From Verrucomicrobiota bacterium (lineage in GTDB: Bacteria > Verrucomicrobiota > Verrucomicrobiia > Opitutales > UBA953), in contig VHCL01000014.1 of assembly GCA_016871725.1 (NCBI GenBank), positions 1 through 40,508 of the forward strand: a stretch of DNA of 40,508 bases, read 5' to 3'. Made by a program: the position numbers and the translations under genes. This document shows, piece after piece, positions 9,030 through 38,883 of this stretch. Under the pieces are notes generated by a model that saw only the letters and a program-made list of their open reading frames with translations, was not told the DNA's origin and did no database searches. Position 1 is the stretch's first letter; every line of letters begins with the position of its first letter.

Positions 9030-9037
9030 GGAAGGAA

Positions 9038-9065: not shown

Positions 9066-9103
9066 GGGCCGAAAAGGTGTCGGGATATCAGGGTTATCGG
9101 TCT

Positions 9104-9124: not shown

Positions 9125-9134
9125 ACTCTTCACT

Positions 9135-14717: not shown

Positions 14718-14720
14718 GGC

Positions 14721-16067: not shown

Positions 16068-16090
16068 GGGGTGTCCACAGTGAACCCCAT
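16066..16090 (-). promoter_or_regulatory. Start-codon hairpin of the CSPTR sulfatase gene
   Basis: ATGGGGT (16066-16072 on the plus strand) and ACCCCAT (16084-16090) are perfect 7-base inverted repeats with an 11-base loop. In the mRNA the 3' arm contains the first two bases of the start codon at 16067. This would hide the start unless the stem is opened. No Shine-Dalgarno sequence is present. Confidence 0.5.
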
Positions 16091-16117
16091 CGGCTCCCGA
16101 AGGTTGAGCCTAAAAGC

Positions 16118-18187
16118 TCACTTCTTGGCCGGGAGCCACTGCACGGCGTCGACGATCACGTGGCCGTCGGTGCCGGCGTTGCCGATCTCGACCCAGCCGG
16201 CCTGGCCGGCGGCGAACTCGAAGGTGCCGACGACGTGGAAGAGGCCCTCGACGGCGGGCTTGAGCTTCTGGTTCACGAGCACCTTGGTCTCGCCTGCGGC
16301 ATGACGGATGGTCACCGGGACGTTCGTGGCGCGGTTGCCGTTCATGCTGTAGGAGATCGCCACGCGGTAGGATCCGGCGGCGGGCAGGGTGGGGACGTAG
16401 CGGGCGGTCATCGCGCCTTTCTCGGCGTTGCCGTCGTGGCGGTAACCGTCGCCGACATAGCGAGGGCTCGTATGGCCCGGCGAGTCGAAGCCCTTGAGGG
16501 CGGCGGCGGTGTCGTCCACGATGACGCCCGGGAGCTTGGCCTTGTCCACGCCGTGGGCGCCGCCGGTCGCGGCGGCGGGGATGAAGTCGAGGACCTGGCC
16601 CGCGGCGAGGAGGCGTTCCTTGAGCGCGCCATAGTCGACGGCCTGGACGCTGGTGCCGCGCTCGATGGCGAGGCCGGCGGCCGTCGCGGCGGACTGGCCC
16701 ATGACCATGAAGACGGGCTCCATGCGGATCGAGCCGTAGGCGATGTGGCTGGCGCTCAGGCAGACCGGCACGAGGAGATTGGTGCACTCGGAGGCCTTCG
16801 GGCGGATGCTCCGGTAGCTGACGGGGTAGGGCTTGCTGCCGACCTGGACGTCCCCTTCGTTGCGGACGAAGCCTTCCTTGGTCACGAACCGCTGGATGTG
16901 GTGCGAATCCATGTTGTAGGCGCCCATGCCGACGGAGTCGTCGATGACCTCGGTGCGGCGGCAGTTCTTCTCGGACATCACGTAGTCGGAGACCATGCGG
17001 CGGGCTTCGCGGACGTAGAGCTGGCGGGGCCAGTTGCCGTTGTCCAGGAACTCGTCCTTCGCCAGGCCGAGCCGCTGGAACGCCAGGCGCATCTTCTCCG
17101 GCACGCGGGGATGATGGGCGTAGGTCCACATCAGGCCTTTCTGCCAGTCCTCGTGGGCCTGCCAGATCTTGGCGCGCGTGGCGTAGTCGGCCTCGGCGTA
17201 ATCCCAGTTCTGGCCGATGAAGTCGGTGCTGATCGCGAAGTTGTTATTGGTGTCCGTCTTCCGGTTGGGCATCGGCGTGGGCGCCCAGGAGTGGCGGTCT
17301 TCGCCGGCTTCGACGTTACGGAGGGCCAGCTCATACCAGCGCTCGTCGTAGTTGGCCGGTTTCTCCCAGTCGCGGCGGTTCTCCGGGACGTCCGTCGTGC
17401 ACATGCGGAAGTTGTAGGCCTGGACCTTGCGGTCTCCCGAGCCGTCGGGGCCGGGGATATCCTTCTCGATGCCGGGCAGGAGGCCGCTCGAGGGGTCGCC
17501 CTTCTTCACGTAGGGGTCGACCTCGACCTTGAACTGGTGGGAGCGCGCGTGGCCGACCTGGACGCCGTTGAGCGTCTCGCCGTAGGTCGCGTTGGCTTCG
17601 CGGCCGACATGGTAGCTGACGCCGGCCTTGGCCATCAGGTCGCCTTCGTAGGTGGCGTCGATGAACATCTTGCCGGAGAACTCGCGGCCGCTTTCCATGA
17701 CGATCTTGACGATGCGCGTGCCGTCCTTGACCACGCCCTTCTTCAGGTCGAGGCGTTCGCCGTAGACCACCGTCACCTTGTCGCCGGCGGCCTTGAGCAT
17801 CCGGTCGTAGATCGCCGAGGCCACGTGCGGCTCGAAGGTCCACATCGTGCCTTCGTCGGCGATGTTGCCGTTGGGACGGCGCGCGAAATAGGCCTCGCGG
17901 GTCTGGTGGACCCACTTGGCGGGGTCGGCGTAATACGAGCCGACGGCCGCGTAGAACTCCCGGGAGAGTCCGCCGATCGCGCGCTTGTTGCCGATGTCGG
18001 TGGCGCCGAGGCCGCCGGTCGTCAGGCCGCCGAGGAACTTCGTCGGCTCGATGAGGACGGCCGTGCGGCCTTCGCGGGCGGCCTGGATGGCGGCGGTGAT
18101 GCCGCCGGACGTCCCGCCGTAGATGACGATGTCCTGGGCGGGGAGGGCGGCGGTGAGGCCGAGCAGGGCGAGCAGCAGGGAGCGCAT
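16118..18187 (-). CDS. Exported FAD-dependent oxidoreductase with golvesin-like C-terminal domain
   Basis: The 689-residue protein begins with signal peptide MRSLLLALLGLTAALPAQ, followed at once by a Rossmann FAD-binding motif (VIYGGTSGGITAAIQA, about residues 20-36). A long FAD-oxidoreductase domain runs to about residue 550 and includes FIDATYEGDLMAKAG, the usual second FAD block of this family. The last ~130 residues (YVGDGYRHDGNAEKG through VIVDAVQWLP) match a golvesin-type beta-sandwich found on secreted enzymes. Such proteins in PVC and Bacteroidota sugar loci are predicted to oxidise sugars or tailor polysaccharide units; activity is rarely shown. It may provide keto sugars for the DUF1080 proteins, which is inference. 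It ends in PAKK. The start has CCCCC directly before the ATG. Two sulfatase genes follow. Confidence 0.88.
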   Translation of the reverse strand: MRSLLLALLGLTAALPAQDIVIYGGTSGGITAAIQAAREGRTAVLIEPTKFLGGLTTGGLGATDIGNKRAIGGLSREFYAAVGSYYADPAKWVHQTREAYFARRPNGNIADEGTMWTFEPHVASAIYDRMLKAAGDKVTVVYGERLDLKKGVVKDGTRIVKIVMESGREFSGKMFIDATYEGDLMAKAGVSYHVGREANATYGETLNGVQVGHARSHQFKVEVDPYVKKGDPSSGLLPGIEKDIPGPDGSGDRKVQAYNFRMCTTDVPENRRDWEKPANYDERWYELALRNVEAGEDRHSWAPTPMPNRKTDTNNNFAISTDFIGQNWDYAEADYATRAKIWQAHEDWQKGLMWTYAHHPRVPEKMRLAFQRLGLAKDEFLDNGNWPRQLYVREARRMVSDYVMSEKNCRRTEVIDDSVGMGAYNMDSHHIQRFVTKEGFVRNEGDVQVGSKPYPVSYRSIRPKASECTNLLVPVCLSASHIAYGSIRMEPVFMVMGQSAATAAGLAIERGTSVQAVDYGALKERLLAAGQVLDFIPAAATGGAHGVDKAKLPGVIVDDTAAALKGFDSPGHTSPRYVGDGYRHDGNAEKGAMTARYVPTLPAAGSYRVAISYSMNGNRATNVPVTIRHAAGETKVLVNQKLKPAVEGLFHVVGTFEFAAGQAGWVEIGNAGTDGHVIVDAVQWLPAKK

Positions 18188-18266
18188 GGGGGTTGCGTCG
18201 ATGTCAGCCGAATCCCTCCGGCCTGCAATCCCGTTCCGCGGAGTCAGCCGTCTCGCGGTATTCTCC

Positions 18267-19037
18267 CTACTCCAACCTCAAGCCTCCGAACTCGGCATGG
18301 CAGGGGCGGTCGGGCGCCCAGGAAAGGTCGTTGCCGCCGTGGAAGGTCTCGAAGAGGACTTTGTCGGCTTGGATGGTCGGCGTCTTGCGCCAGACCATCG
18401 TCCGCGCGGCGACTTCGGCCGAGGTATCCCCGAACGTGACTTTGAGTTCAAGCAGGCCGTCGGCCCGTTCGGGATGATTCAGGCGTACGCGTAGGCGGAT
18501 GTTGACGTCCTGATCGCGGGGGAGGAGGAAGGTCTTGGGCAGGCTGAAGCTATCGCCATAATCCTTGGTCTGGCCGGCATGGTAGGCGTAGGCCTCCATG
18601 CGTCCGTCGGCCCGCCACATCGGGCGCACGGAGAATCCGTTCAGGCCGTCGGCCTTCCGGCCGCCGGTGGTCTTGCCGGGGCCGCCGCCGAGGCCCGGCA
18701 ACTTGCCGCCTTTCTTCCAGTCGAAATCGGGCGAGAAGCGGACCACATAAGAGAGGACGACTTCGTCGCGACTTTCGAAGGACTGATTCCAGGCCGCGCC
18801 GCCTTCGGAGGGGCCGATGCGTCCGGGTGCGTAATCGATGCGCCAGCGTTTGCCGTCGGGACGGGCAACCACGCTGACCCTTCCTTCGCTGACGCCGTCC
18901 TCCCACGGGCAGCCGGGCCATTCGGCACGCCAAGCTTGGGTGTCATAGGCGCCGGGTGCGGTGAACGGGTTGCAGGGAATCTGGGCTGAGGCGAGGGCCG
19001 CGCACAGCATCAGGGCGCTGATCAACGAAAGATTCAT
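18267..19037 (-). CDS. Exported polysaccharide lyase 14-like protein
   Basis: I take the ATG at 19037, which opens a signal peptide (MNLSLISALMLCAALASAQ) and gives 256 residues; an open frame continues upstream to 19124 but adds no recognisable leader. The core is the jelly-roll of PL14-like alginate or glucuronan lyases: RFSPDFDWKKGGKLPGLGGG at about 99-118, followed by FSVRPMWRADG and AYAYHAGQTKDYG. The family cleaves uronic acid chains by beta-elimination. This is the main hint that the target polysaccharide contains uronic acid. The stop is TAG. The gene lies 31 bases after an SGNH hydrolase gene and before the FAD oxidoreductase gene. Family assignment rests on the KGGKLPGL signature from memory; related lyases without lyase activity exist. 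Confidence 0.75.
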   Translation of the reverse strand: MNLSLISALMLCAALASAQIPCNPFTAPGAYDTQAWRAEWPGCPWEDGVSEGRVSVVARPDGKRWRIDYAPGRIGPSEGGAAWNQSFESRDEVVLSYVVRFSPDFDWKKGGKLPGLGGGPGKTTGGRKADGLNGFSVRPMWRADGRMEAYAYHAGQTKDYGDSFSLPKTFLLPRDQDVNIRLRVRLNHPERADGLLELKVTFGDTSAEVAARTMVWRKTPTIQADKVLFETFHGGNDLSWAPDRPCHAEFGGLRLE

Positions 19038-19068
19038 GATCCTGAGATGAGTTCTTCGGCCGAAGGTC

Positions 19069-19926
19069 TCACCGGCCGATCGCCGGCTTGAGCAAGGGCT
19101 CCAGGCGTGCCGCGTAGACGGCATAGCCCTCGAGGGACAGGTGAATATTGTCCGGGGTGAAGAGCGCTTTCTTGATCGTGCCGTCGGCGTTCAGGAAGTC
19201 CTTCGTCAGGTCGAGCATCTTGATCTTCGGGTCGGCGCCGAGGTTCAGTCTGTCGATCTCGGCGTTGGTCAGCAGGATGTCCTCGTAGAAGCGCACCTTG
19301 GGCGCATGGCAGGGCAGGATCTTCACGACGATGAGCGCGGCGTCCGGGAATTTCTCGCGCAGGTTGCGGGCGCACGCTTCGACGCCCTTGGCTGCGGCGG
19401 CGACGCCGGTCTCGGGCGTGAAGAACATGTTGTTGTTGCCGATCATCAGCACGACGGCCTTCGGTTGCAGGCCGTCGACGCCGCCATGGTCGAGGCGCCA
19501 GAGCACGTTCTGCGCCTTGTCGCCGCCGATGCCGATGTTGATCGTCTTGGCGCCCGGGAAGGCCTTGAGCCAGGCGGCGTTCAGCACGCCCTTGTCGAGC
19601 GGGCTGCCCCATTGCTGGGTGATCGAATCGCCGACGAGCAGGACGTCGCATGGGCCGGCGTTCTTGCGGACATGGTCGACCAACTTCGCATGCGTGTCGA
19701 CCCACGAGGTGCCGCCCCAAGAACCGGCGGAAGGCACGGCCGGCCAGAGGTGCGGGAGGTGCTTATTGATCTCGCGGCCGGGTCGGCGTTCGAATTCCGG
19801 CTTGGCGATGAAAGCGCTTTCTTCCGCCGTCAGCGGCCAGCCTGTCGGCTGAGGATCCGCCGGCTTGTGTGCGTATTCAAGGCCCAGCAAAGGAGCGGCC
19901 AGCAAGAAGCAGACGGCGCGGCACAT
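19069..19926 (-). CDS. Exported SGNH/GDSL hydrolase (acetylhydrolase-like)
   Basis: The ATG at 19926 opens a signal peptide (MCRAVCFLLAAPLLGLEYA) and gives 285 residues; a longer in-frame extension to 20313 only overlaps the esterase gene and is rejected. Block I is VGDSITQQWG with the nucleophile in GDS at 99-101. Block II is the Gly of NIGIGGD. Block III is GNNN at 163-166 and block V is DNIH at 259-262. The fold matches the PAF-acetylhydrolase-like GDSL_2 group, which in polysaccharide loci removes acetyl groups from sugars. It lies 11 bases after the putative esterase gene and 31 before the PL14-like gene, so these look like one transcript. Confidence 0.9.
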   Translation of the reverse strand: MCRAVCFLLAAPLLGLEYAHKPADPQPTGWPLTAEESAFIAKPEFERRPGREINKHLPHLWPAVPSAGSWGGTSWVDTHAKLVDHVRKNAGPCDVLLVGDSITQQWGSPLDKGVLNAAWLKAFPGAKTINIGIGGDKAQNVLWRLDHGGVDGLQPKAVVLMIGNNNMFFTPETGVAAAAKGVEACARNLREKFPDAALIVVKILPCHAPKVRFYEDILLTNAEIDRLNLGADPKIKMLDLTKDFLNADGTIKKALFTPDNIHLSLEGYAVYAARLEPLLKPAIGR

Positions 19927-19937
19927 GGCGATAGGTC

Positions 19938-21068
19938 TCAGCGAGGCTGATAGCCCTGCCAGAGCCATTCGAGGGCGGCGGGCAGGAGCTGGGGGCGGGC
20001 GTTGCCGATGCCGTGGCCGGAATCCTGGCAGAAGTAATACTGGTAGGGGTAGCCCTTGGCTTTGAGGACCTTGGCCATGCGGTGGTTGGCCTCGACCCAG
20101 TCGTGCATGCCGTCGCGCATGACGTTGGGGTTGTAATTGTCGCGGTCGCCGACGGCCAGATAGATGCGGATGGGCTTGCGTTCGCTGTTCGGGATCAGGG
20201 TTTCGTGGAAATCCCAGGCGCCGCCCGGGGTCTTGGGGTCGAAGGGCCACTGCTGGTTCACGAAGGTGCCTGAGGTGGTGAGCACGCGGCGGAACCATTC
20301 CGGGTGATACCACGCCATGATGAGCGCGGCGGAGCCGCCGGAGCTCGACCCCATGGTGGCTCGACCTTCGGGGTCGGTGGTCAACTTCACGCCGAAATTC
20401 TTTTCCACGAGGGGGAGGATCTCATGCTGGATATATTCGGCGTAGAGGCCGGACATGGTGTCGTATTCCTTGCCGCGTTCGTGGCCCTGGGCGTCGCCGC
20501 CGCCGTTGGCGATCTGCACCATGATGAGCGCGGGAATGCGCTTCTGGGCGATCAGGTTGTCGAGGATGCGAGCCGTGTTGAGGTCCGGCTTGCCGAGGCC
20601 CGGGCCGTCGTGCGTGACGAGCAGGGGAGCGGCGGTGCCCGGGACGTACTGGGCCGGGATGTAGACGGTGATGGTGCGTTTGTAGTCGATCGTGTGCGTC
20701 TTGACGATGAGGGTCTTGGGGTTGTTCGGATCCGGCACGCCGAACTCTTCGCGCGCGATACCCGGGTTGAAGCGCTGCGTGGTCTTCGAATCGATCTGGA
20801 ACTGCTGGATCTTGCCCTGGGGCACGCCCTCGACGGCCTTGGTCTCCGGGGCGGCGACGTAGGTCGGGCCGACGAGATAGTTGCCGTCCTTGAGCGAGGT
20901 CTTGTCGCCGAGCTTCACGAACTCCGGCGCGCCCGGGGCGTCGAAGGCGCGGGTGGGCGGCGTCGGGCGGGCTTGTTTCTTGGGCGCCTGTTGGGCGGCC
21001 TTGGGCTTGTCAGCCGCGGTGAGCGCCGCCAGCGGAGCCAGCAGCAGGAGGGCGAGGAGGGAGCGCAT
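19938..21068 (-). CDS. Exported putative esterase (enterochelin esterase / feruloyl esterase-like)
   Basis: I place the start at ATG 21068, where a signal peptide begins (MRSLLALLLLAPLAALTAAD). A longer frame to 21200 runs through the repeat DNA and reads as a PYPYPHPYPY string, so I reject it. The 376-residue protein has a lysine/proline-rich linker at 21-38, then an alpha/beta hydrolase of the putative esterase family. The nucleophile motif is GSSSG at 240-244 (Ser242), with HDGPG as likely oxyanion region and H352 in SGHGIGNA. Relatives hydrolyse acetyl, feruloyl or siderophore esters. In this locus, removal of acyl decorations from a polysaccharide is the best guess. Its leader contains an AT-rich stretch and a pyrimidine-rich repeat. 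Confidence 0.88.
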   Translation of the reverse strand: MRSLLALLLLAPLAALTAADKPKAAQQAPKKQARPTPPTRAFDAPGAPEFVKLGDKTSLKDGNYLVGPTYVAAPETKAVEGVPQGKIQQFQIDSKTTQRFNPGIAREEFGVPDPNNPKTLIVKTHTIDYKRTITVYIPAQYVPGTAAPLLVTHDGPGLGKPDLNTARILDNLIAQKRIPALIMVQIANGGGDAQGHERGKEYDTMSGLYAEYIQHEILPLVEKNFGVKLTTDPEGRATMGSSSGGSAALIMAWYHPEWFRRVLTTSGTFVNQQWPFDPKTPGGAWDFHETLIPNSERKPIRIYLAVGDRDNYNPNVMRDGMHDWVEANHRMAKVLKAKGYPYQYYFCQDSGHGIGNARPQLLPAALEWLWQGYQPR

Positions 21069-21078
21069 GGTTTTTAAA

Positions 21079-21106
21079 TAGGGGTAGGGGTGGGGGTAGG
21101 GGTAGG
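21079..21106. repeat. Hexamer tandem repeat, unit TAGGGG
   Basis: Nearly five units of TAGGGG, one changed to TGGGGG, end 10 bases upstream of the esterase start at 21068. It is almost the same array as 7453-7478. On the mRNA strand it reads as C-rich, G-free DNA, so it could also act as a Rho-loading site. Confidence 0.85.
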
Positions 21107-21117
21107 ATGACGATACC

Positions 21118-21141
21118 GTGCAAAGGTGCAAAAGTGCAACG
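21118..21141. repeat. Octamer tandem repeat, unit GTGCAANN
   Basis: Three adjacent 8-base units start at 21118, 21126 and 21134. Each is GTGCAA followed by two variable bases (AG, AA, CG). A degenerate fourth unit, GTGAGACT, may follow at 21142. Confidence 0.8.
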
Positions 21142-21189
21142 GTGAGACTCGGTTCGAGCTGGCAGGTGATTGTGTGCTGAGTGTCTGGC

Positions 21190-21221
21190 CAACCATTCAA
21201 CGGATCAACCGGTCAACTCTG
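21190..21221. repeat. Octamer tandem repeat, unit CAACNNNN
   Basis: Four adjacent 8-base units start at 21190, 21198, 21206 and 21214. Each begins CAAC; the second halves (CATT, GGAT, CGGT, TCTG) vary. The array ends 8 bases before the stop codon of the downstream-lying sulfatase gene. With the two arrays above it fills much of the 161-base gap 21069-21229. Confidence 0.8.
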
Positions 21222-21229
21222 TCTCGAGC

Positions 21230-22858
<1,629 letters not shown>

Positions 22859-22879
22859 GGGGATAAAAGCAAATTACGG

Positions 22880-22904
22880 GGCAAAGCAGGCTGAGGGCAA
22901 AGAC
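22880..22904. repeat. GGCAAAGCA-type repeat shared with 31764
   Basis: GGCAAAGCA (22880-22888) and GGCAAAGAC (22896-22904) flank a 7-base spacer. The 12-mer GGCAAAGCAGGC at 22880-22891 recurs exactly at 31764-31775, also in a gap upstream of a minus-strand gene. Confidence 0.6.
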
Positions 22905-22907
22905 GGA

Positions 22908-22945
22908 AATGGGGTCAGGCCCCATTAATAGGGTCTGACCCCATT
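22908..22945. repeat. REP-like palindrome (AATGGGGTCAGRCCC arms)
   Basis: Arms at 22908-22922 and 22931-22945 are inverted repeats matching at 14 of 15 positions, with an 8-base loop. Each half is itself partly palindromic (GGGGTCAGGCCCC). The element lies 20 bases after the DUF1080 stop. From memory, GGGGTCAGACCCC palindromes occur widely in bacteria as REP-type elements mobilised by IS200-like (RAYT) transposases; none is encoded here. On the minus strand it could also end the DUF1080 transcript, but only a very short T-run follows. Confidence 0.7.
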
Positions 22946-22965
22946 ATGGCCGGAGGGTTCGGCGC

Positions 22966-23751
22966 TTACTTCTTGGCCGGGGCCTTCTTGGCGGGCGGGT
23001 TCTTGCCCTGGGCGCTGACGACCTTGGGCTTGTCGATCTTCTTGGCGCCGGCGGGGAGGGCGGCTTGGTCGAAGGGCAGGACAGGACCGTCTTCCAGGAC
23101 TTTGAGCAGGACCTGCTTCACGTAGGTCTTATGCGGATTGCCGGCGTGGAGCTGGATCGCGATGAGGCCTTCGAGGGCGCGGCCCTTCTCGTCGTGGTCG
23201 ATGAAGACCGAGGTCGTCCGGCCGTTCACCTTATGTTCGAGGCGATTGCCGCGGGCGATCACCGTGAACTCGTTGTATTGGGAGATGTCGGCCTGCACGC
23301 GCGGGCGTTCGCCGACCTGCCAGCGCTGGCCCGTCGGGTCCATCACCACGTCGACGCCGTTATAGCCGAAGATCCCGCGGCCGCGTTCTTCGTAGGTCAT
23401 GGCCGTATGGACGTCGGTCGGATGGACGTCGCACTGGTAACCGAGGATCGTCCAAGGCGTGACTTCAGGCAGGCGGCGGCTGCGGTATTGGACGCCGGAG
23501 TTGTTGTCGCCGACCACCTTGACCGTCGCGCGCAGTTCGAAGTCCTTCACCTTGCCGTTCCAGATCAGGAACGAGTTCGTCTTCGGCTTGCCGACTTCGC
23601 TCGTGCCCACGATCACGCCGTCCTCGACGGCCCAGAGTCCGGGTTCGCCGTCCCAGCCGGAAAGGTCCTTGCCGTTGAAGAGCGGCGTGAAGCCTTCCTG
23701 GGCGAAGGCGGGCAGGGTGAGGGTGAGTAGGAGGAGACTTAGGGTGTTCAT
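22966..23751 (-). CDS. Exported DUF1080 protein (3-keto-disaccharide hydrolase family)
   Basis: The 261-residue protein has signal peptide MNTLSLLLLTLTLPAFA followed by the hallmark GFTPLFNGKDLSGWDG of DUF1080 (PF06439). The beta-sandwich domain spans about 18-215, with NNSGVQYRSR and GYQCDVHPTD as conserved blocks. Members of this family are now described as acting on 3-keto glycosides, cleaving sugars first oxidised at C3. The tail is lysine/proline-rich (PPAKKAPAKK). It starts 7 bases after the DUF1552 stop, so it shares a transcript with the DUF1592 and DUF1552 genes. That linkage suggests the redox pair could make its keto substrate; this is inference. A second DUF1080 domain occurs at 36007-37320. 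Confidence 0.9.
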   Translation of the reverse strand: MNTLSLLLLTLTLPAFAQEGFTPLFNGKDLSGWDGEPGLWAVEDGVIVGTSEVGKPKTNSFLIWNGKVKDFELRATVKVVGDNNSGVQYRSRRLPEVTPWTILGYQCDVHPTDVHTAMTYEERGRGIFGYNGVDVVMDPTGQRWQVGERPRVQADISQYNEFTVIARGNRLEHKVNGRTTSVFIDHDEKGRALEGLIAIQLHAGNPHKTYVKQVLLKVLEDGPVLPFDQAALPAGAKKIDKPKVVSAQGKNPPAKKAPAKK

Positions 23752-23758
23752 GAGAGGG

Positions 23759-25045
23759 TCAGGCGGTCAGTTCCTTGAGGGTGCCATTGCTGTCGCCGTG
23801 GCTGTCGACCTTCACGCCACTGCCCCGCAGGAGGGTGAGCCAGAGATTGCAGAGCGGGGTGCTCTTGCCTTGGAGGGCGATATGCCGGCCGAGGCGGATG
23901 CCGGCGCCGCCCCCGGCGATCAGCGTGGGGCAGTTGTCTAGGTAATGGATCGTGCGGATATTGCTGCCGTACGCGATCGTGGTGTGGTCGAACAGGCTGG
24001 AGCCGTCGGCTTCCTTCGTGGCCTTGAGCTTGGCGAAGAGACCGGCCAGCAGCCTGCTTTGCTCGAGGTCGCGTTTCTGCGAAGCTTCCATGCGTTCGCC
24101 CGGGGCGTAGTGGCTCATGTCGTGCGAAGCCACCTTCACGCTGAGGCTGGCGAGGAGGGAGCTGACCGGCTGACGATAGGTGAGGACGCGGGTGCTGTCG
24201 GTCTGGAGCGCCGCGACGATCAGGTCATACATCACCTTGATCTCGTCCTTGCCGGCGAGGCCAGGCTTGGGCGGAGGGAAGGGCGCCTTGGCCTTGGGGC
24301 GGTCCAGCCATTGTTCGTCCTTCGAGAGCCGCAGTTCGATGTCGCGGACGCTTTGGAAGTATTCCTCGAGCTTGTCGGTATCGGCGCGCGAGAGGCCGCG
24401 ACGGACGCGGGCGGCGTCTTCGAGCACGGCATCGAGCACGCTGCGCTGCTGGGCGAGCAGCGCCTGGCGTCGGGCGAGCGGCATGGTCTCGTCGGAGAAG
24501 AGACGATGGTAGGCGGCGACCGGGTTCTCGTGCCCGGCCAGCGGCTTGCCTCGCGCATCCCAGGCCATCGAGCCGGGGCCGTGTCCGGAATCGCTGGCGT
24601 TGGCGCAGTCGAGCCGGATGGAGCCATAACGCGTGTCCATGCCGAGCTTGGCGGCGGCGACCTGGTCGGCGGAGATGCCGTTGTGGAAGCTCTGCCCGGG
24701 CTGCGCGTAGCGGTTGGCGCCGGTCAGCCAGAAGGTGCTGCCCCAGTGGGCTTCATCGCTGAACTTGTTCGCGAGGCCTTGGACGATCGTGAAATCTTTC
24801 TTGTGTTCGGCCAGCGGGGCGAGTCCGGCGGGCAGGGCGTAGTCGGCTCCGGTATCCTTGAGGGACGGGAACCAAGTCTCATTGGTCACCCCGTAGCCGA
24901 AGCCCAGGAAGACCATGCGCTTCGGTTGGCTGACAGGCTTCTCGGCGGCGAAGGCCTTGAAGCCCAGCGAGCTCAGCGCGGGCAGGGCGATCAGCGTGCC
25001 GGCGGCGCGGAGGAAGTGGCGTCGGCTGAGGTCGGTTCGGCTCAT
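23759..25045 (-). CDS. DUF1552 Tat-exported protein, partner of the upstream DUF1592 protein
   Basis: The 428-residue protein starts at ATG 25045, overlapping the stop of the DUF1592 gene by 4 bases (ATGA), so translation is coupled. SRRHFLRAAG at 8-17 is a twin-arginine signal. The rest is DUF1552: FGYGVTNETWFP, GADYALPAGLAPLAEHKKDF, TFWLTGAN, DSTRVLTYRQP, and HDMSHYAPGE with conserved histidines in the middle of the protein. The family is distantly related to DUF1501 and always accompanies DUF1592-type cytochromes in Planctomycetota and Verrucomicrobiota. No reaction has been shown. Tat export suggests it folds, perhaps with metal, before leaving the cytoplasm. Confidence 0.92.
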   Translation of the reverse strand: MSRTDLSRRHFLRAAGTLIALPALSSLGFKAFAAEKPVSQPKRMVFLGFGYGVTNETWFPSLKDTGADYALPAGLAPLAEHKKDFTIVQGLANKFSDEAHWGSTFWLTGANRYAQPGQSFHNGISADQVAAAKLGMDTRYGSIRLDCANASDSGHGPGSMAWDARGKPLAGHENPVAAYHRLFSDETMPLARRQALLAQQRSVLDAVLEDAARVRRGLSRADTDKLEEYFQSVRDIELRLSKDEQWLDRPKAKAPFPPPKPGLAGKDEIKVMYDLIVAALQTDSTRVLTYRQPVSSLLASLSVKVASHDMSHYAPGERMEASQKRDLEQSRLLAGLFAKLKATKEADGSSLFDHTTIAYGSNIRTIHYLDNCPTLIAGGGAGIRLGRHIALQGKSTPLCNLWLTLLRGSGVKVDSHGDSNGTLKELTA

Positions 25046-28000
25046 TTGGTTTGGAAAGTCTCGGAGAGGATGAGCGCGCGGAGGAAGGCGGCCATCTGAT
25101 AATCCTTGGCCTGCGCCTCCGTGAGGATGGCCGTGGCGAGCGGTTCGTCGAGGAAGCCGAACGGACGTCCCAGGCCATACTCCACGAGAGACTCGGTGAA
25201 GCCGCGGCCGAACTTCTCAGGATGGGCGGCGATCTGGTCGCGGAGCTCAAAGTAGTCCTTGAAGCTCGATCCCTTGTAGAAGGCGCCGGCCGGGCTGATC
25301 GGCCAGGTCTTCCGGCCGACCCCCCTCTTCTCGTAGGTCTCGGTCGTCCGCCATTTGCCGGTGGCGTTGAAGTTCTCCAGTCCGAAGCCGAGGGGGTCGA
25401 TCTTACGATGGCATTGGGCGCACTGAGGTTGCTCCTGGTGCGCGGAGAGGCGTTCGCGGGTAGAGAGGAGCTTGTCTTCGAGGCGATTAAGCTGCGGGAC
25501 GTTCGGCGGGGCAGGGGGCGGCGGTTCGTGCAGCAGCTTGCGCAGGATCCAAGCACCTCGTTCGACCGGGCTGGTGTCGCGGCCGTTACTGCCCATAGCC
25601 AGGATGGCGGCCATGCCGAGCAGGCCGCCGCGCGGCGAATCCTTGGGCAGCTTCACCTTGCGGAAGGCGTCGCCGCTGACCTCGCTCAATCCGTAGTAAT
25701 CGGCGAGCAGGCCGTTGATCACCACGTAGTCGCTCTTGAGCAGGTGGTGGAGGCTGTCCCCCTGGCGCAGGATGTGGTCGATGGTCTGATAGACCTCATC
25801 ACGGGCGGCCGCCTTGGTGCTGTCGTCGAAATCCTTGTGGAGCTTGGTGTCGAACTGGAAGAAATCCAGGCGGTTCATTCCGAGCCACTGGTGGGTGAAG
25901 CCGGTCACGAAGGCGGCCGACTTGGGGTCGGCGATCAAGCGGTCGACCTGCGCGCCCAGGATGACGGGCTCGTGCAGGGTGTTCTTCTCGGCGAGGCGCA
26001 GGAGCTCGGCGTCGGGCGGGGCGCTCCAGAGGAAGTAGGACAGACGGGAGGCGAGTTCGAGGTCGTCGAGCCGGCGGGATCCTTTCCCGGGGTTGGGTTC
26101 GGAGAGATAGAGAAAGCCGGGAGAGGCGAGGATCACGCTGAGCGGTTCACGCAAGGCGCGCTCGTGGTCGAGCCCGCTCTGACGGCCGGCGCGGTAGATG
26201 CCCATGAGCCGGTCGAGGAAGGGCTGCTCGGCGGAACGTCCGCGGAAGGCGCGTCGGGCGAAGTCGGCCAAACAGGCGCGCGCCTGATCTTCGTCCGTCC
26301 GGCCGGCGCCGCGGGTCAGGACCGGCGTCGGGCCGGCGGCTTTTCCTTCGGCCGTCAGGGGGCCTTCCCATTCGACCCAGTCGATCCAGAGCGCCGGAGG
26401 CGGACCCATGCCGGTCTCCTTCCGGGCGGCCTGATAGCGCTCCAAGTCCAATTTGACCTCACGCTTCTCGCGCAGGATGAACGTCCGCGGGCTGTCGGCC
26501 GTGACGTTCACGCGTAGTTCCATCACCTGAGGGTCCGTGGTGGTGCCGGTCACCTCACGGGTCTCGAGGAGCGTGAAGTCCTCCTCGCCGGAGAGTCGCG
26601 TCCCGACGGCCAGGTAGCGTCGTTCCTTCGGGGCGTCCGGGGTCGCGCCGATGCGGAGTCGTAGGACGTATTCTCCCGGCAGGACCGTCGGGGTCACGTG
26701 CTTGGTCTTGAGCCAGCCCGAAGGCTGATCGGGCGGGAGCGTGATGGCTTCCTCCTTGTGGACGTTGTGAATGGTCAGGTAGGCGCCCGTCTTCGTGAGC
26801 GGATCTTCCAGGTAGCGACGGAAGCTAGGTCCATTCTCCTCGAAGACCTTGATCCGAAATTTCGCCGCCTGCGCGTCGGGGATGTCTTTCTGCGGCTTGC
26901 CCGTGGCGAGGAACGCCTGCGCCGCTTCGTGGCCTCCCTTGACATAGCCTTTGTAGGTCCCGCCGACCATCGCGTTGGCGTGGAGTTCGACCTCGCGCCT
27001 CTGCTTGTGGTTGGCCCTCTGGCCGTCGACGTTGGTGATTTCGATCCAGTCGATCCAGAGGGCGAACTCTGGCCCGACGCCGTTGCGCCGGAGGGCTTCC
27101 CCGAAGATCTGGTGGGCCCGCTCATTGGAGTCGAAGGAGCCGCGTTCGCGGAGGAAGAATCCGCGGCTTCCCCCGGTGGTGATCGTCACCGGGATCTCCA
27201 GGACCTGCGGCCGCTCCATCGTGCCGGTCACCGCATGCGTGCTGGCGACCGCGCCATGCATCGGGCCGAACTCGACGAAATGCCGTGACTTGGGCGTATC
27301 GGCGGTGGCGGCGATGCGGACGCGGACATGATAGCGGCCGGCCGGCCAGTCTCCGGGGACGTTGAAAGGCTGGTAAGGGTTGGCGAAGACGTCCTCGTAG
27401 GTGAGGAAGGAGCCTGTCTTCGTCGCGGGGTTGGCCAGGTAGGCCCGCTGGTGGGGAGCGTAGTGCACCCAATTACGCCGGCCTTGCTCGTCCGCATGGA
27501 TCGCATCGAGGTAGCCGAACTTCTCCGGGCTGGGCGCGCCCGGGATGCGCTGCCACTGGTAATAGCGGTAGGTGGCGTCGCCTTTCTTCTCGGCCGCGAG
27601 GGCCGCGACGATGGGGCTGTTTTCGGGGCGGGCCGCCGCCTCATCGACCGCCTTGGTCCAGGCGACGTAGCGTTCATGGCAGTCGACGCGGTCGGCGTAG
27701 GACTTGGTGATGCGCGGATTCGCGTAGGCCTCGGCTTCGGTCCGGATCGTCAGGGCCTTCGTCGGGGCGAAGCGGATGAAATGTTCGTCGATCGCCTGAC
27801 GTCCGAGCGCCAGATAGCGTTCGAACTGGTCCGAGGACATGAAGAGCGAGGCTCCCACGGTGTCGAAGGCCCCGGCGCCGCCGTCGGCGGGCAGTTCGTT
27901 GACGGGCAGGTCGACGCCGAGCAGGTCGCGGAGGGTGTTCTTGTATTCGCGGCGGTTGAGGCGGCGCATCGTGATCCGGCCATGGGCGTCGCCGATGGTC

Positions 28001-28326
28001 TTCCGCGCGGTGACGAGCGTGCCCGAGAGCATCTCGAGGAAATCGGCTTTCGCGACCGGAGCCGGTTGCTTGGAGTCGTCGGGCGGCATCTCCCCCGAGT
28101 TGACCTGGTTCAGGATCTTCTGCCAGCGGTCCGCGAGCTGGACCGTATCGAGCTTCAGGGCGATGTCGTCGAGGCGGAGCTTGCCTTTCTGCTTGTCCGC
28201 GTTGTGACATTCGACGCAGTATTCCTTGAGGAAAGCGCGATGCTTCTCGTCGATGCGCGCCTCCGGAGGCGCGCCGAAAGCCAGCGCGGCGAGGAAGGGG
28301 AGGAGGATGAGACGACGCAGGGGCAT
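25042..28326 (-). CDS. DUF1587/1592/1588/1585 cytochrome protein with two tandem carbohydrate-binding-like modules
   Basis: This 1094-residue protein is far longer than its 770-residue relative at 31813. The signal peptide is MPLRRLILLPFLAALAFGA. A cytochrome-like region has CVECH at 37-41. DUF1587 covers about 115-180 (MRRLNRREYKNTLRDLLGVD). Residues about 295-430 and 504-655 are two similar beta-rich modules, each with a TKTG start, an RLRIGAT/RVRIAAT strand, a VTGT turn, a PQVxE block and an FxLRE strand, and each ending ALWIDWxE. DUF1595 and DUF1592 follow (about 680-880), then DUF1588 with a second heme-type CAQCH at 969-973, then DUF1585 to the end. It is exported and likely redox-active on a bulky substrate. 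The following DUF1552 gene overlaps by 4 bases. The start is ATG 28326. Confidence 0.93.
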   Translation of the reverse strand: MPLRRLILLPFLAALAFGAPPEARIDEKHRAFLKEYCVECHNADKQKGKLRLDDIALKLDTVQLADRWQKILNQVNSGEMPPDDSKQPAPVAKADFLEMLSGTLVTARKTIGDAHGRITMRRLNRREYKNTLRDLLGVDLPVNELPADGGAGAFDTVGASLFMSSDQFERYLALGRQAIDEHFIRFAPTKALTIRTEAEAYANPRITKSYADRVDCHERYVAWTKAVDEAAARPENSPIVAALAAEKKGDATYRYYQWQRIPGAPSPEKFGYLDAIHADEQGRRNWVHYAPHQRAYLANPATKTGSFLTYEDVFANPYQPFNVPGDWPAGRYHVRVRIAATADTPKSRHFVEFGPMHGAVASTHAVTGTMERPQVLEIPVTITTGGSRGFFLRERGSFDSNERAHQIFGEALRRNGVGPEFALWIDWIEITNVDGQRANHKQRREVELHANAMVGGTYKGYVKGGHEAAQAFLATGKPQKDIPDAQAAKFRIKVFEENGPSFRRYLEDPLTKTGAYLTIHNVHKEEAITLPPDQPSGWLKTKHVTPTVLPGEYVLRLRIGATPDAPKERRYLAVGTRLSGEEDFTLLETREVTGTTTDPQVMELRVNVTADSPRTFILREKREVKLDLERYQAARKETGMGPPPALWIDWVEWEGPLTAEGKAAGPTPVLTRGAGRTDEDQARACLADFARRAFRGRSAEQPFLDRLMGIYRAGRQSGLDHERALREPLSVILASPGFLYLSEPNPGKGSRRLDDLELASRLSYFLWSAPPDAELLRLAEKNTLHEPVILGAQVDRLIADPKSAAFVTGFTHQWLGMNRLDFFQFDTKLHKDFDDSTKAAARDEVYQTIDHILRQGDSLHHLLKSDYVVINGLLADYYGLSEVSGDAFRKVKLPKDSPRGGLLGMAAILAMGSNGRDTSPVERGAWILRKLLHEPPPPAPPNVPQLNRLEDKLLSTRERLSAHQEQPQCAQCHRKIDPLGFGLENFNATGKWRTTETYEKRGVGRKTWPISPAGAFYKGSSFKDYFELRDQIAAHPEKFGRGFTESLVEYGLGRPFGFLDEPLATAILTEAQAKDYQMAAFLRALILSETFQTK

Positions 28327-28519: not shown

Positions 28520-30259
28520 TCATCCTCCGAAACGATAGTTGAAGCGGGCGTTCGGAGCCGTGTCGCCATGGTCGAGTAAATCCATGCCTTCGCCGGAATC
28601 AGGGACGTTATCCGTCCATTTGAAATCAAAGCGGACGGCCGTCCCTTCGGTCAGTCCCAGCAGTCGTTTGTCGACCGCCAGGTGGAGTTGGTCGCGACCG
28701 ACCTGCAGGCGGGCTTGGCCGTGGGGCACCCAGCGTCCGCCATCCCATTTCTCCACGGTGGCGATGTCCGGCGACTTCCGGGCTTGGTTGAGGCGGTAGT
28801 CGTAACCGAGCCTCCCGGTGCGGGAATCCTGATCGGTATCCAGCCAAAGGGTCATCCAATCCGGGTCCTGTGATGAGGTGAGCGTGCCGCGGGCGGAAGC
28901 GTGGAAGAAGATCGTCCGCGCGTCTTGCGCGACCTTGAACGAATCAAGGTCGTTGCGTCCGGTCTTGTTGACGTAGCGACCCGCATCCCCGACGCCTCCG
29001 AAATCCCGATGCGTCACGTCGTTGATGTCGTCCAGGTAGGCCGGGTTGACTTGCTGCCATTGCGCGAAATCCCCCGGGACGGCGATGGTCCTGTCGGGGC
29101 CGGGTTGCGGAGGTTGACGGGCGCCTTTGTAGCGTCGGATGTTCGCGGCGAGCTGCCAGTAATAGTTGTCGCCGTAACCGCCTTTCATCGGTTCGAGGTC
29201 CCGGCTGAACTCGGCGTCGTAAAGGTCCACGAAGAACGTCTGGCCGACGGGCAGGATCTTCCCGTTGAAGCCGATGACCCCGTCGCCGAGGAAGCGTTGC
29301 GCGACCCATTCGTTCCAACCGGTCACGAAGACGAACTGCGGCGCGAGCGGCAGGGCATGGCGCCATTGTTCGTCGAAGTAGAGACCCTCTCCGGAGCGTG
29401 TCTGGCCGGGGGGCGGCTGCTTGCTCCCATGGAAGCTCCGGCCGATGTTGCCGGTCGGATGCTGGCTGACGCCCACCGGCACCGCCTCAGCCTTGTCGGG
29501 ACGCTCGTGCCAGCCGGCGGTCTGCGGGGCGAAATCCAGCCACGGCCAACGGTCCTTGCCGTCGCCGAACCAGGTCTGCCCGCGGCTCCAGGCCCAGGAG
29601 GTGCGAATCGTGAAGAAATCGCGCACTTCCGGCGGCAGCCCCTCGGTCGGGGTGAGGAGCAAGGGTTTTCCTTGCCAGCGGAACCATAGGTCGGCGTAGC
29701 GGCCCGGCTGATAGAAGGTCTTCCAGAGGTGGGTGACCGTCGGGACGTGGTGCGCGTAGGCGAACAGCGCGAACTGAGGCACCTTGCGTCCTTCGGCCTT
29801 CATTTCGGTCAGCACCTTGCAGAAGGCCTCGCGCTCGGCGTCGTAGGTCAGCGCGTTGGTGACGTCCAGGACGAGCATGTCCACGCCGGCGTCGGTCAGC
29901 ATCTGCACGTGCTTGCGGATGATCCAAGGGTCGTCCGGCCGGTAGTAGCCGAACCTTGGTTCGCCCCAATAATGCGCCGCCTGGACCGGGCCCCACTGCG
30001 GGTTGGTCGGGTTGGCGGCGAGGATCTTGGAGATGTCATGCACCTGCTTCGTCCCGAAGGCGGCGTGCCAGTTGAAGTAGAACATGCCCACCGTCCGGTC
30101 CGGCTTCGGGGCCCCGGCTTCGGTCGCGGTCGGCAGCTTGCGATGCAGGGCGTCGGCGGCCACCCATGTGTCCGGCTGGGTGTCACGGAAGCGCGCCTCC
30201 TCTCCTGCCACGATGGCGAAGCAGACGGTCAGGAGGCCTGGGGCGATGAGCCATCTCAT
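28520..30259 (-). CDS. Exported GH71/GH99-like (WbsX-type) protein with C-terminal CBM9-like domain
   Basis: I start at ATG 30259, which begins a signal peptide (MRWLIAPGLLTVCFAIVAGEE) and gives 579 residues; an upstream GTG at 30340 adds a leader without signal character. Residues about 55-375 look like a (beta/alpha)8 barrel of the GH71/GH99/WbsX group. Conserved features are VGMFYFNWH, HYWGEPRFGYYRPDD, AGVDMLVLDVTN and GWNEW at about 314-318. Residues about 395-579 form a beta-sandwich with DPDWMTLWLDTDQDSRTG, resembling CBM9/DOMON-like carbohydrate-binding domains. Such enzymes may cut alpha-linked mannan or glucan chains, but PVC members are not characterised. It follows the DUF1552 gene after 90 bases containing a hairpin. 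It is the only glycoside-hydrolase-like gene in the window. Confidence 0.7.
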   Translation of the reverse strand: MRWLIAPGLLTVCFAIVAGEEARFRDTQPDTWVAADALHRKLPTATEAGAPKPDRTVGMFYFNWHAAFGTKQVHDISKILAANPTNPQWGPVQAAHYWGEPRFGYYRPDDPWIIRKHVQMLTDAGVDMLVLDVTNALTYDAEREAFCKVLTEMKAEGRKVPQFALFAYAHHVPTVTHLWKTFYQPGRYADLWFRWQGKPLLLTPTEGLPPEVRDFFTIRTSWAWSRGQTWFGDGKDRWPWLDFAPQTAGWHERPDKAEAVPVGVSQHPTGNIGRSFHGSKQPPPGQTRSGEGLYFDEQWRHALPLAPQFVFVTGWNEWVAQRFLGDGVIGFNGKILPVGQTFFVDLYDAEFSRDLEPMKGGYGDNYYWQLAANIRRYKGARQPPQPGPDRTIAVPGDFAQWQQVNPAYLDDINDVTHRDFGGVGDAGRYVNKTGRNDLDSFKVAQDARTIFFHASARGTLTSSQDPDWMTLWLDTDQDSRTGRLGYDYRLNQARKSPDIATVEKWDGGRWVPHGQARLQVGRDQLHLAVDKRLLGLTEGTAVRFDFKWTDNVPDSGEGMDLLDHGDTAPNARFNYRFGG

Positions 30260-30312
30260 GCCCTTCAGACTGCCGGGTGCCGGCGTTTCCTCAACGCGGG
30301 TCGTCTCATCCG

Positions 30313-30332
30313 GACGCAGATAAGTCTGCGTC
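30313..30332 (-). terminator. Perfect 8-bp hairpin after a DUF1552 gene
   Basis: GACGCAGA (30313-30320) and TCTGCGTC (30325-30332) form a perfect stem with a 4-base loop, 17 bases after the DUF1552 stop at 30350. No T-run follows. It may be an mRNA-processing or stabilising hairpin between the DUF1552 and GH71/99-like genes. Confidence 0.5.
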
Positions 30333-30349
30333 AGAAGCACATTTCAGCC

Positions 30350-31808: not shown

Positions 31809-31816
31809 GGGCTTAC
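31801..31816 (-). terminator. Small hairpin overlapping the stop of a DUF1592 gene
   Basis: GTAAGC (31801-31806) and GCTTAC (31811-31816) form a perfect 6-bp stem with a 4-base loop that includes the TAA stop at 31815-31813. No T-run follows, so termination is doubtful. Confidence 0.3.
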
Positions 31817-34125
31817 TGCGGCTCTTTTTCGTCCTTCTGGGGCTTCTTGGCCTTGGCTTCGGCGAGGGCGAGCTCGTTGCGGTTGCGGAAAGGGGTGCTC
31901 AGGACGATCTCGCGCAGGAGGGTCTGGGACTTGAAGCCGTCGGCTTCGAGCCGGTCGACGATCTGCTCGATCGTGCCGTCGTCGCGGTCGACCAGGCTGC
32001 GGCCGAGGGAATAGCCGAGGAGCTTGGACGTCATCTGGCGGGCGAAGTCACGCTTGCGGGTGAGCAGCAAGGCCTTGAAGGCGTTGAGGTCCTTGAAGGC
32101 CTGGCCGGAGGCGGTGACCCCGGAGGCGTCGATCGGCTTGCCCTTCTCGTCGACGTCGCGCCAGCGGCCGATGCGGTCGAAATGTTCGAGCGAGAAGCCG
32201 ATCGGGTCGATGACGTTGTGGCAGGAGGCGCAGGTGGCGTCGGCGCGATGGACTTCCAGTTTCTCGCGGAGGGAAAGGCTGGAGGCCTTCTTCTTGGCGG
32301 TGCTGGCGGCTTCGAGCGGCGGCACGTTCGCGGGCGGGGCGGGCACCGGCGTGCCCATGAGCGTGGTGAGCACCCAGGCGCCGCGGAGCACCGGGCTGGT
32401 GCGGCGGCCGGGTGAGGTGAGCATCTGGACGGCGCCGAGGCCGAGCACGCCGCCGCGGAGGTTGTCCTTCAGGATGACCTTGCGGAACTGGTCGCCCTTC
32501 ACGCCGGGGATCCCGTAGTAGTCCGCGAGGCGTCCGTTGATGAAGCTGTAGTCAGCGGAGATCAGTTCGAGCAGGCTGCGGTCGCCGCGGAGGAGGTGGT
32601 CCATCATCGCGACGGCCTCCTTGCGCATGTCGGCGCCGACCTTGTCGTTGTAGATGCCCTTCGAATCGGCCGCCTCGGGTGACAGCGGCACCGTCTCGCC
32701 GACGGCCTTTGTGCCGAGCCATTGTTCCGTGAAGTTGCGGATGAACGAATCGGCCTTCGGGTCGGCCAGCATCCGCTTCAGCTGGGCTTCGAGGGTGGCC
32801 GGCGCGTTCAGCTTGCCGGCGTCGGCCAGCGCGTCCAGTTCGGCGTCCGGGGTGCTGTTCCAGAGGAAATAGGAGAGCCGGACGGCGAGTTCGTGGTCCG
32901 ACACCGGGCGCAGGCCCGGCTCGACGTGGTCGCGCTCGGCGCGGAAGAGGAAGCGCGGCGAAGCGAGGATGCCGCGCAGGGCGAGCTTCATCGAGGTCTC
33001 GAAGTTCTCGCCGCGCGAAGCCGAGCGGTCGAACAGCGTCAGGTTCTTCGCGACATCCTTCTCCGTCACCGGGGTGCGGTAGGCCAGGCGGGCGAATTTC
33101 TGCAGCAGCCCGGAGGCGACGGCGCGGCGTTCGGCGGGGGATTTGCCGGCGAGCGTGGCCGTGCTGACGTCGCCCAGGAGGCGCCGGTGCGCCTCGCGGC
33201 GTTCCGGGGTGACGGCCTTGGGTTTGTCGACGAGCTCCAGGCCCGCGATCTCGACGTCGCCCTGTTCGGCGACGAGCGTCAGGCGATGGGGGCCGCGGAA
33301 GAACTGGAGCTGCACGTCGGTCGCGGTCGGTGCGCCGGGTGCGAACTCGACGGACTGGGCCGCGATGCCGTCGACCTTCAGGAGCAGCCTGGCCTTCGCG
33401 GCGCCGAGGGCATGGGCGCGCAGCGTCAGCACGTGCGGGGCCTTCATCGTCACCGGGAAGGAGACGGAGGCCTCCTCGCCGGACTTGAGGCGCCCTCCGC
33501 CCGACACGCCGGCGGCGCGCTCGAAGTCGGTCGGCACGAACCGGCGGCGGGTCTCCGGCACGATGACGGACTCGTCGACGATCGCTTCGGCGGCGTCGAG
33601 ATAACGTTCCATCAGGATGACCGGGAGGAAGAGCGTCTCGCCGTTGTTGTCGAAACCCTCGCCGCCGCCGCCGTCGGACGGGAAGGTCTGCGAGAACTTC
33701 ATCTTCAGGCCGAGGAGGTCGCGGATGGTGTTGTCGTATTCGAGCCGGTTGAGGCGACGGGCCGTCACCGTGCCGGCATAAGGCCCCATCTCCTTGGCGG
33801 TCTCGCGCAGGACGCGTTCGAGCCAGTCGGCGACCTGGCGGCGTTCGGTCTCGCTCGGCTGGTCGTCCTTGGGCGGCGGCATGGTCCGGTTGCGCAGCTG
33901 TTCGACCGCGCTGCGGAGGTGGCCCCGGCGGGTGTTGATCTGGCTGAGTTCCTTGACGGCCAGGAAGTCGGCTTCCTTGCCGGCCTTATGGCACTCCGAG
34001 CAGTAGAGCGAAAGGAGGGGGCGGATCTCCGACTTGAAGTAAGCCGCGTCCTCCGGCGTCACGGCCCCGGCCGCGGCGAAGGCGCCGAGGAGCAGGGAGG
34101 TCAGGAGGTGGCGACGGACAGACAT
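31813..34125 (-). CDS. DUF1587/1592/1588/1585 cytochrome protein (second copy, usual length)
   Basis: I use ATG 34125; an in-frame TTG directly before it adds only one residue. The 770-residue exported protein has signal peptide MSVRRHLLTSLLLGAFAAAGA. A cytochrome-like region carries CSECH at 42-46. DUF1587 is near 115-180 (ARRLNRLEYDNTIRDLLG). A single beta-sandwich linker follows, where the relative at 25042 has two modules. DUF1595 and DUF1592 cover about 310-545 (RLSYFLWNSTPDAELD). DUF1588 contains a second CASCH at 632-636, and DUF1585 ends the domain chain. The C-terminus is charged (AEAKAKKPQKDEKEPQ). The pair partner, DUF1552, follows after 92 bases. It is likely an extracytoplasmic redox protein; reaction unknown. 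Confidence 0.93.
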   Translation of the reverse strand: MSVRRHLLTSLLLGAFAAAGAVTPEDAAYFKSEIRPLLSLYCSECHKAGKEADFLAVKELSQINTRRGHLRSAVEQLRNRTMPPPKDDQPSETERRQVADWLERVLRETAKEMGPYAGTVTARRLNRLEYDNTIRDLLGLKMKFSQTFPSDGGGGEGFDNNGETLFLPVILMERYLDAAEAIVDESVIVPETRRRFVPTDFERAAGVSGGGRLKSGEEASVSFPVTMKAPHVLTLRAHALGAAKARLLLKVDGIAAQSVEFAPGAPTATDVQLQFFRGPHRLTLVAEQGDVEIAGLELVDKPKAVTPERREAHRRLLGDVSTATLAGKSPAERRAVASGLLQKFARLAYRTPVTEKDVAKNLTLFDRSASRGENFETSMKLALRGILASPRFLFRAERDHVEPGLRPVSDHELAVRLSYFLWNSTPDAELDALADAGKLNAPATLEAQLKRMLADPKADSFIRNFTEQWLGTKAVGETVPLSPEAADSKGIYNDKVGADMRKEAVAMMDHLLRGDRSLLELISADYSFINGRLADYYGIPGVKGDQFRKVILKDNLRGGVLGLGAVQMLTSPGRRTSPVLRGAWVLTTLMGTPVPAPPANVPPLEAASTAKKKASSLSLREKLEVHRADATCASCHNVIDPIGFSLEHFDRIGRWRDVDEKGKPIDASGVTASGQAFKDLNAFKALLLTRKRDFARQMTSKLLGYSLGRSLVDRDDGTIEQIVDRLEADGFKSQTLLREIVLSTPFRNRNELALAEAKAKKPQKDEKEPQ

Positions 34126-34133
34126 CAAGGACA

Positions 34134-35210: not shown

Positions 35211-35981
35211 TCAGCCGACGATCAGCCAGACGGCGGCGAAGGCCGTCAGCCAGGCCAGGACGGACTCGAAGGCGTCCTGCTTGATGCGCTTCAGGATCTG
35301 CCAGCCGAGCACGATGCCCGCGATCACCCCGGGCAGGAGCACCAGATTGGTCATGAGTGACGGTCCGGTGACGAGGCCGAGGTTGCCGCTGAACGGCAGC
35401 TTGAACAGGTTGATGAACAGGAAGAAACGGCAGAAGACGCCGAGGTGCTCCTTCTTCTCCAGCCGCTGCGCCAGGAGGTAGACCGTCATCACCGGGCCGG
35501 CGGCGTTCGCGAGCATCGTGGCGACCCCGGCCACGCCGCCCATGCCCCAGGTGAAGGTGCGGTGGCGCGTCAGGGCGAGGAGCTGCTCGCGGCGATGCCG
35601 CAGGACGACGTTGAAGGCGAGCAGGGCGAGGATGATGACGCCGATGACGATGCGGGCGGAACCGTTGTCGACCCGATCGAGCAGGAACCAGCCGGCGAAC
35701 ACGCCGACGACCGCCGCGGGGATCATCGGGACGATCTGCCGCCAGCTCCCGCCGCGGCGGTTGAGGAGGTAGCCCATCAGGTCGGCGACGATGAGCATCG
35801 GCAGGACGATGCCGACCGAGGGCTTGGCGTCGAAGATCTTGGCCATGATGACGACGTTGAGCGTCGCCGTGCCGGCCAGGCCGGACTTCGAGAGGCCGAT
35901 GCACAGGGCGCCGAACAGCGCGAGCAACAGGATCCACCCGTCGGCCGGCAGCAGGGTGTGGCTATGGATCCAGTCGAGCAT
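35211..35981 (-). CDS. TauE/SafE-family anion exporter
   Basis: The 256-residue protein is almost wholly hydrophobic with about eight membrane segments. GLSKSGLAGTATLNVVIMA near residues 29-47 is the first conserved repeat of the TauE/SafE family, and GVAGVATMLANAAGPVMTVYLL near 150-171 is the second, as expected for its internal duplication. The family exports sulfite, sulfoacetate or related anions, although many members have other substrates. Placed next to a sulfatase gene and within an island of four sulfatases, export of sulfate or sulfite released from polysaccharide is an attractive role, but this is inference. It lies 25 bases after the SGNH-DUF1080 gene. Confidence 0.9.
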   Translation of the reverse strand: MLDWIHSHTLLPADGWILLLALFGALCIGLSKSGLAGTATLNVVIMAKIFDAKPSVGIVLPMLIVADLMGYLLNRRGGSWRQIVPMIPAAVVGVFAGWFLLDRVDNGSARIVIGVIILALLAFNVVLRHRREQLLALTRHRTFTWGMGGVAGVATMLANAAGPVMTVYLLAQRLEKKEHLGVFCRFFLFINLFKLPFSGNLGLVTGPSLMTNLVLLPGVIAGIVLGWQILKRIKQDAFESVLAWLTAFAAVWLIVG

Positions 35982-36006
35982 CGGCCGCAGTGAGTCGGAG
36001 ACCGGC

Positions 36007-37320: not shown

Positions 37321-37335
37321 GGTGAGGAGATGAGC

Positions 37336-38871: not shown

Positions 38872-38883
38872 GGGGTCACCCCA
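38869..38883 (-). promoter_or_regulatory. Stop-in-loop hairpin coupling the glycosyltransferase and sulfatase genes
   Basis: In the mRNA the 15 bases read TGGGGTGACCCCATG. TGGGG pairs with CCCCA around the 3-base loop TGA, which is the glycosyltransferase stop. The second arm includes the A of the sulfatase ATG. A ribosome finishing the first gene would melt the stem and free the start, so coupling is likely. No Shine-Dalgarno sequence is present. Confidence 0.5.

Follow-up and report, generated by a model that had tools for sequence, protein, structure and literature searches.

The window, by which we mean the whole 40,508-nucleotide stretch of DNA analysed here, from a lake bacterium, carries on its minus strand a gene for a DUF1592-family protein of 1094 residues that, judged from its sequence, is probably an exported cytochrome. 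Its place in the DUF1592 (PSCyt3/PSD4) family is evident from the domain order PSD3-PSD5-PSD4-PSCyt3-PSD2 together with the CxxCH motifs, and PSCyt1, PSD3, PSD5, PSD4, PSCyt3 and PSD2 each score above the Pfam cut-offs. All core domains are thus present, in the same order, as in the planctomycete-type PSCyt/PSD group with PSCyt3 (DUF1587-DUF1595-DUF1592-DUF1588-DUF1585). Approximately 500 residues between PSD3 (ending at 181) and PSD5 (starting at 682) match no Pfam family; the module found in this gap is covered by no Pfam or NCBIfam model. The features are as follows.

25042..28326, minus: DUF1592-family protein, 1094 aa, CxxCH at residues 37-41 and 969-973
28075..28218, minus: PSCyt1 cytochrome domain, residues 37-84 (Pfam PF07635, E 4e-8)
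27784..27966, minus: PSD3 (DUF1587), residues 121-181 (Pfam PF07626, E 8.5e-22)
27028..27756, minus: module of type A, residues 191-433, predicted beta-jelly-roll with a helical insert after strand 1
26356..27015, minus: module of type B, residues 438-657, predicted fold as in module A
26698..26742, minus: loop specific to type B, residues 529-543, candidate ligand loop
26098..26283, minus: PSD5 (DUF1595), residues 682-743 (Pfam PF07637, E 1e-14)
25687..26070, minus: PSD4 (DUF1592), residues 753-880 (Pfam PF07631, E 3.8e-39)
25339..25632, minus: PSCyt3 (DUF1588) with the second CxxCH, residues 899-996 (Pfam PF07627, E 1.1e-34)
25054..25272, minus: PSD2 (DUF1585), residues 1019-1091 (Pfam PF07624, E 2.1e-16)
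23759..25045, minus: DUF1552 (HXXSHH family) partner gene, whose start shares 4 bases with the stop of the DUF1592 gene
22966..23751, minus: next gene, 3-keto-disaccharide hydrolase family protein (PF06439)

The initial annotation had proposed a duplicated module in the 1094-residue protein, with residues 295-430 and 504-655 aligning block by block. When the two halves of the insert are aligned locally, residues 291-429 pair with 500-652 at a score of 218. None of 2000 shuffles scored above 69 (mean about 33, sd 5): the two-copy repeat is real. All six motif blocks (TKTG, R-x-R-I-A/G-A-T, VTGT, PQV-x-E, F-x-LRE and ALWIDW-x-E) are in register between the copies, and modules A and B share 35% identity (BLASTP). 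The proposed limits hold as the core of the alignment, but not as the extent of the unit. Because both copies begin with an R-x-E-x-E strand and a helical hairpin – as seen in the family alignment with the inserts of relatives and in the structure model – the units are longer, running from about 191 to 433 (A) and 438 to 657 (B) and taking up the space from PSD3 to PSD5. In a plain pairwise alignment of the two copies the leading strand and hairpin give no significant signal.

Structure prediction gives both segments one fold, not two unrelated ones. In a full-length AlphaFold2 model (38 sequences, mean pLDDT 81) the copies (193-432 and 440-655) show the same order of elements – first a strand and long helices, next several consecutive strands, and finally a helix followed by one more strand – with pLDDT mostly around 90 in the module regions; module B modelled alone from 56 module sequences reached pLDDT 92.9 and pTM 0.88. 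In a structure search with the full-length model, the matches listed were filled by the modules. With VIA-align, the structure nearest to module B is the CBM6 of an agarase (2cdo/2cdp, Z 9.5 over 115-119 residues at 3.2-3.3 A), with further matches to CBM36 (1w0n, Z 8.8) and CBM35 (2w47, Z 8.4); the structure nearest to module A is the CBM35 of a GH26 mannanase (3zm8, Z 10.0), ahead of Xylanase J (6kjl, Z 9.7) and the CBM6 2cdo (Z 9.3). Structural neighbours are mainly CBM35, CBM6 and CBM36 (Z 8-10, about 106-123 residues, 2.8-3.9 A), many of those of module A sharing 14-20% identity. The aligned residues (approximately 110-120) are far fewer than the module length and are spread over the whole module range, a pattern that fits a jelly-roll into which the helical hairpin has been inserted. 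Jelly-rolls other than CBMs (Eph receptor EphA2, binary-toxin and BcsB domains) rank among the matches too, Foldseek E-values are modest, and a Z near 8-10 over so common a fold indicates fold class, not function. As to fold class, the models give good support to a CBM6/35/36-like beta-jelly-roll in which a long helical insert follows strand 1.

The likeness to CBM35, CBM6 and CBM36 may extend to an E-x-E in the first strand and an Asp in the last, while the helical hairpin and the lack of a sequence-profile match set the module apart: a search of 56 modules gave no CBM family match in Pfam at E up to 1, which places the module outside known CBM families by sequence. AA9/GH61 oxidases also matched weakly (E 0.0044 in the PDB; E 0.017 in Pfam, for 4 of the 56 modules). 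These matches were taken as chance, since they span some 50 residues and the structural matches listed include no AA9 protein.

Across modules, the E-x-E of the first strand and the W-x-D-W of the last strand are nearly invariant, as are the equivalent positions E445, E447 and D649 in B and E197, E199 and D426 in A. At the level of sequence, the two motifs resemble the structural calcium site of CBM6/35. Type B has in addition the loop 529-543, the least confident part of the module B model, in which W538, K540, K542 and H543 are each at least 90% conserved among type B modules. In CBM6/35/36 domains an aromatic binding platform lies at the loop edge or the concave face; W538, the residue considered for it here, is invariant in the type B loop and absent from types A and C. 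The basic residues of this candidate ligand loop would suit anionic sugars.

To establish how widely the module occurs, one genome per species was scanned for ALW[IV]DW[VI]E and hits were confirmed against module B, giving 178 stretches, and a set of 80 loci was retained from them; the sequences derive mostly from metagenome bins. Each of the 83 frames bearing the module encodes a DUF1592 protein with flanking PSD3 or PSD5/PSD4 regions (7 miss one flank, each cut by a contig end): within the set scanned, the module is restricted to DUF1592 proteins. It is present in 33 of 273 genomes of the order and, at a strict cut-off, in 11 of 387 genomes drawn evenly from the phylum. A tree of 217 modules splits types A, B and C, and types were assigned by membership in that tree. 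The 75 complete arrays (the window's included) come from Verrucomicrobiota, Planctomycetota and one member of the Kiritimatiellota, hold one to five copies, and are nearly always ordered as zero to four A, then B, then at most one C: AB 25, ABC 16, B 9, AAAB 8, AABC 6, AAB 5, A 3, AAABC 2 and AAAAB 1. A sister family of the same order has AABB and ABB arrays, so the A-B-C order is a strong tendency and not a law. The genus of the window itself has AB, ABC and AAB forms plus single-A paralogues. Lengths from PSD3 to PSD5 are stepped (about 145-300, 487-544, 714-789, 979-1064 and 1276-1299 residues, with few in between), and spacing is nearly constant (256-264 residues from A to A, 224-231 from B to C).

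In this tree the window's module A clusters with type A modules from other lineages, and its module B likewise with those of type B. A recent duplication was rejected on this ground: the types separated before the lineages did. What had been described as a duplicated module is indeed a pair of related tandem modules; the copies, however, are not equivalent, being two old types in an array of one to five. The array itself is, from these sequence comparisons, old and positionally fixed in type, and its copy number changed often: on a core-domain tree (71 proteins, modules excluded) copy number changes at least 26 times and the presence of C at least 11 times. Averaged over pairs, identity is 0.43 in the A module adjoining B, 0.70 in B and 0.64 in the core; among proteins having C it is 0.74 in C and 0.69 in the core. 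Type A thus diverges faster than the redox core, and B does not. Since loci were chosen by similarity to type B, that choice itself accounts for part of the near-universal presence and strong conservation of B and biases its identity upward; it does not explain the low value of A.

The same slot is occupied in other DUF1592 proteins as well. Relatives of the module were found in single-slot proteins with hhalign probabilities of 100% (L145 type), 95.5% (L022 type) and 94% (second gene of L108). The 771-residue protein of the window (31813-34128) has, as described from the outset, a single shorter segment of about 150 residues in this position; profile comparison detected no module homology in it, nor in some other single-slot proteins. 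A sugar-binding-like domain is likely to be a common occupant of the PSD3-PSD5 slot, having been multiplied in the module-bearing branch.

A DUF1552 partner gene lies directly beside 60 of the 68 module genes whose neighbourhood was decidable, and DUF1552 genes also adjoin those of the planctomycete-type PSCyt/PSD group. The window's own genome has five genes of each family, DUF1592 and DUF1552, which share contigs and lie near each other. In the partner encoded at 23759..25045, which has a Tat-like signal, HDMSHY replaces the family signature HxxSHH. Among adjacent DUF1552 proteins whose motif could be read, 51 of 53 have HxxSHY, and within the window's own genome the partner of the module protein alone has it; beside module-free DUF1592 genes the motif is HxxSHH in 3 of 3 readable cases, a small control set, and the DUF1552 profile was seeded with an HxxSHY protein. 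HxxSHY possibly marks a subfamily of DUF1552 partners.

Within the window are four sulfatases, a PL14 lyase, esterases, two 3-keto-disaccharide hydrolase domains and a GH99-like protein. The sulfatases, lyase, esterases and 3-keto-disaccharide hydrolases form a dense cluster at 13293-23751 and 35211-39030, which also has an FAD oxidoreductase with a Golvesin domain and a TauE exporter and is probably a sulfated-polysaccharide locus. The order with the 3-keto-disaccharide hydrolase gene is kept in several relatives of the same genus, and such a gene is near few relatives outside it. The suggested survey of module number against neighbouring CAZymes gave no usable trend, either for sulfatases or for 3-keto-disaccharide hydrolases: 12 of 47 genes have sulfatases within 6.5 kb downstream, and how many modules a protein has makes no clear difference to this. 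The GH99-like protein (28520-30340), which has an extra C-terminal region, stands between two DUF1592 units; in the fetched loci no relatives of it were found near module genes at the threshold used. Elsewhere in the window, 7608-12101 encodes a second planctomycete-type cytochrome system (PSCyt1-DUF1549-DUF1553 with DUF1501), and a cytochrome P450 gene (2061-3227) lies near the carbohydrate cluster.

Taken with fold and neighbourhood, it is somewhat probable that the modules bind polysaccharide and so feed a periplasmic oxidoreductase composed of the cytochrome and DUF1552. The DUF1592 protein would be exported, and its modules would bind a polysaccharide or its oligomers, here – judged by the neighbouring genes – probably sulfated or containing uronic acid. 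The modules would hold the polymer near an active centre comprising the PSD4/PSCyt3 region and the DUF1552 partner; this centre would oxidise the sugar, the electrons would reach the respiratory chain by way of the two hemes, and the neighbouring 3-keto-disaccharide hydrolase may cleave the oxidised product. Type B, conserved and adjoining the core, would have a fixed job (contact with the core, or a shared ligand), while the diverging type A copies, added and lost, would tune avidity or choice of ligand. More tentatively, the modules may form a new carbohydrate-binding family, confined to planctomycete-type cytochromes, whose copy number and type A sequence make up an evolvable specificity cassette, serving a new class of heme-linked periplasmic polysaccharide oxidation by DUF1592/DUF1552 pairs; this larger claim is possible, and we hold it loosely.

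The main rival to sugar binding is the docking of a partner protein: the modules would act as a scaffold that holds the DUF1552 partner or packs on the PSD core, the jelly-roll serving protein contact, as it does in some of the fold matches (EphA2, BcsB). Such a role would account for a conservation of type B close to that of the redox core (0.70 vs 0.64), for the invariant W/K/K/H loop of type B, and for HxxSHY in partners of module proteins and not beside module-free genes, which suggests matched partners – although the HxxSHY link may reflect shared ancestry only. One to five copies with the same kind of partner are nevertheless hard to square with a single docking site, and type A outpaces the core in divergence (0.43 vs 0.64); we consider docking unlikely.

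Two further explanations dispense with binding altogether. Were the modules passive spacers, fixing how far the redox domain extends from its anchor on a membrane or polymer, copy number would count and sequence would not; near-constant spacing and the frequent changes in copy number are what such spacers should show, but many residues and motifs are nearly invariant over all types and phyla, and types hold fixed positions for which a spacer has no need, making this a very improbable account. That the repeat is a chance resemblance or an assembly artefact, a concern where most sequences are metagenome bins, has a negligible probability: the alignment score is far above the shuffles, both copies have one fold, and artefact is refuted by the same arrays in many independent assemblies, in the isolate Rhodopirellula maiorica SM1 and in the complete chromosome CP036272.

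Carbohydrate-binding modules in PSCyt proteins are already known. A study of freshwater Verrucomicrobia genomes reported some PSCyt genes with various CBMs, CBM_6 among them, and noted conserved neighbours, including sulfatases, around PSCyt genes of unknown function, for which a role connected with carbohydrates was suggested (PMC5615132). What is new here is an unnamed tandem module in one to five copies: unlike the CBM-bearing PSCyt/PSD proteins, the segment has no Pfam CBM match. The literature searched, with partial coverage, contained no description of the module or its copy-number series, and among the papers found none establishes a ligand, enzymatic activity or function for a DUF1592 protein. 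The placing of jelly-rolls head to tail within a single protein recalls the tandem CBM arrays of glycoside hydrolases such as CBM22-CBM22 of Xyn10C (4xup), but the present array is in a cytochrome protein and lies between two core domains, not at a terminus.

DUF1592/DUF1552 systems abound in Verrucomicrobiota and Planctomycetota, and the module – a defined, expressible unit of 215-250 residues whose fold suggests ligand binding – offers a handle on them: its ligand may lead to the substrate of the enzyme. The series from one to five copies is in effect a natural experiment on avidity. Multiplication also takes another form: genomes G472 and G567 have up to seven single-module DUF1592 genes, most within about 150 kb, so that here whole genes have multiplied, whereas in other genomes it is the modules.
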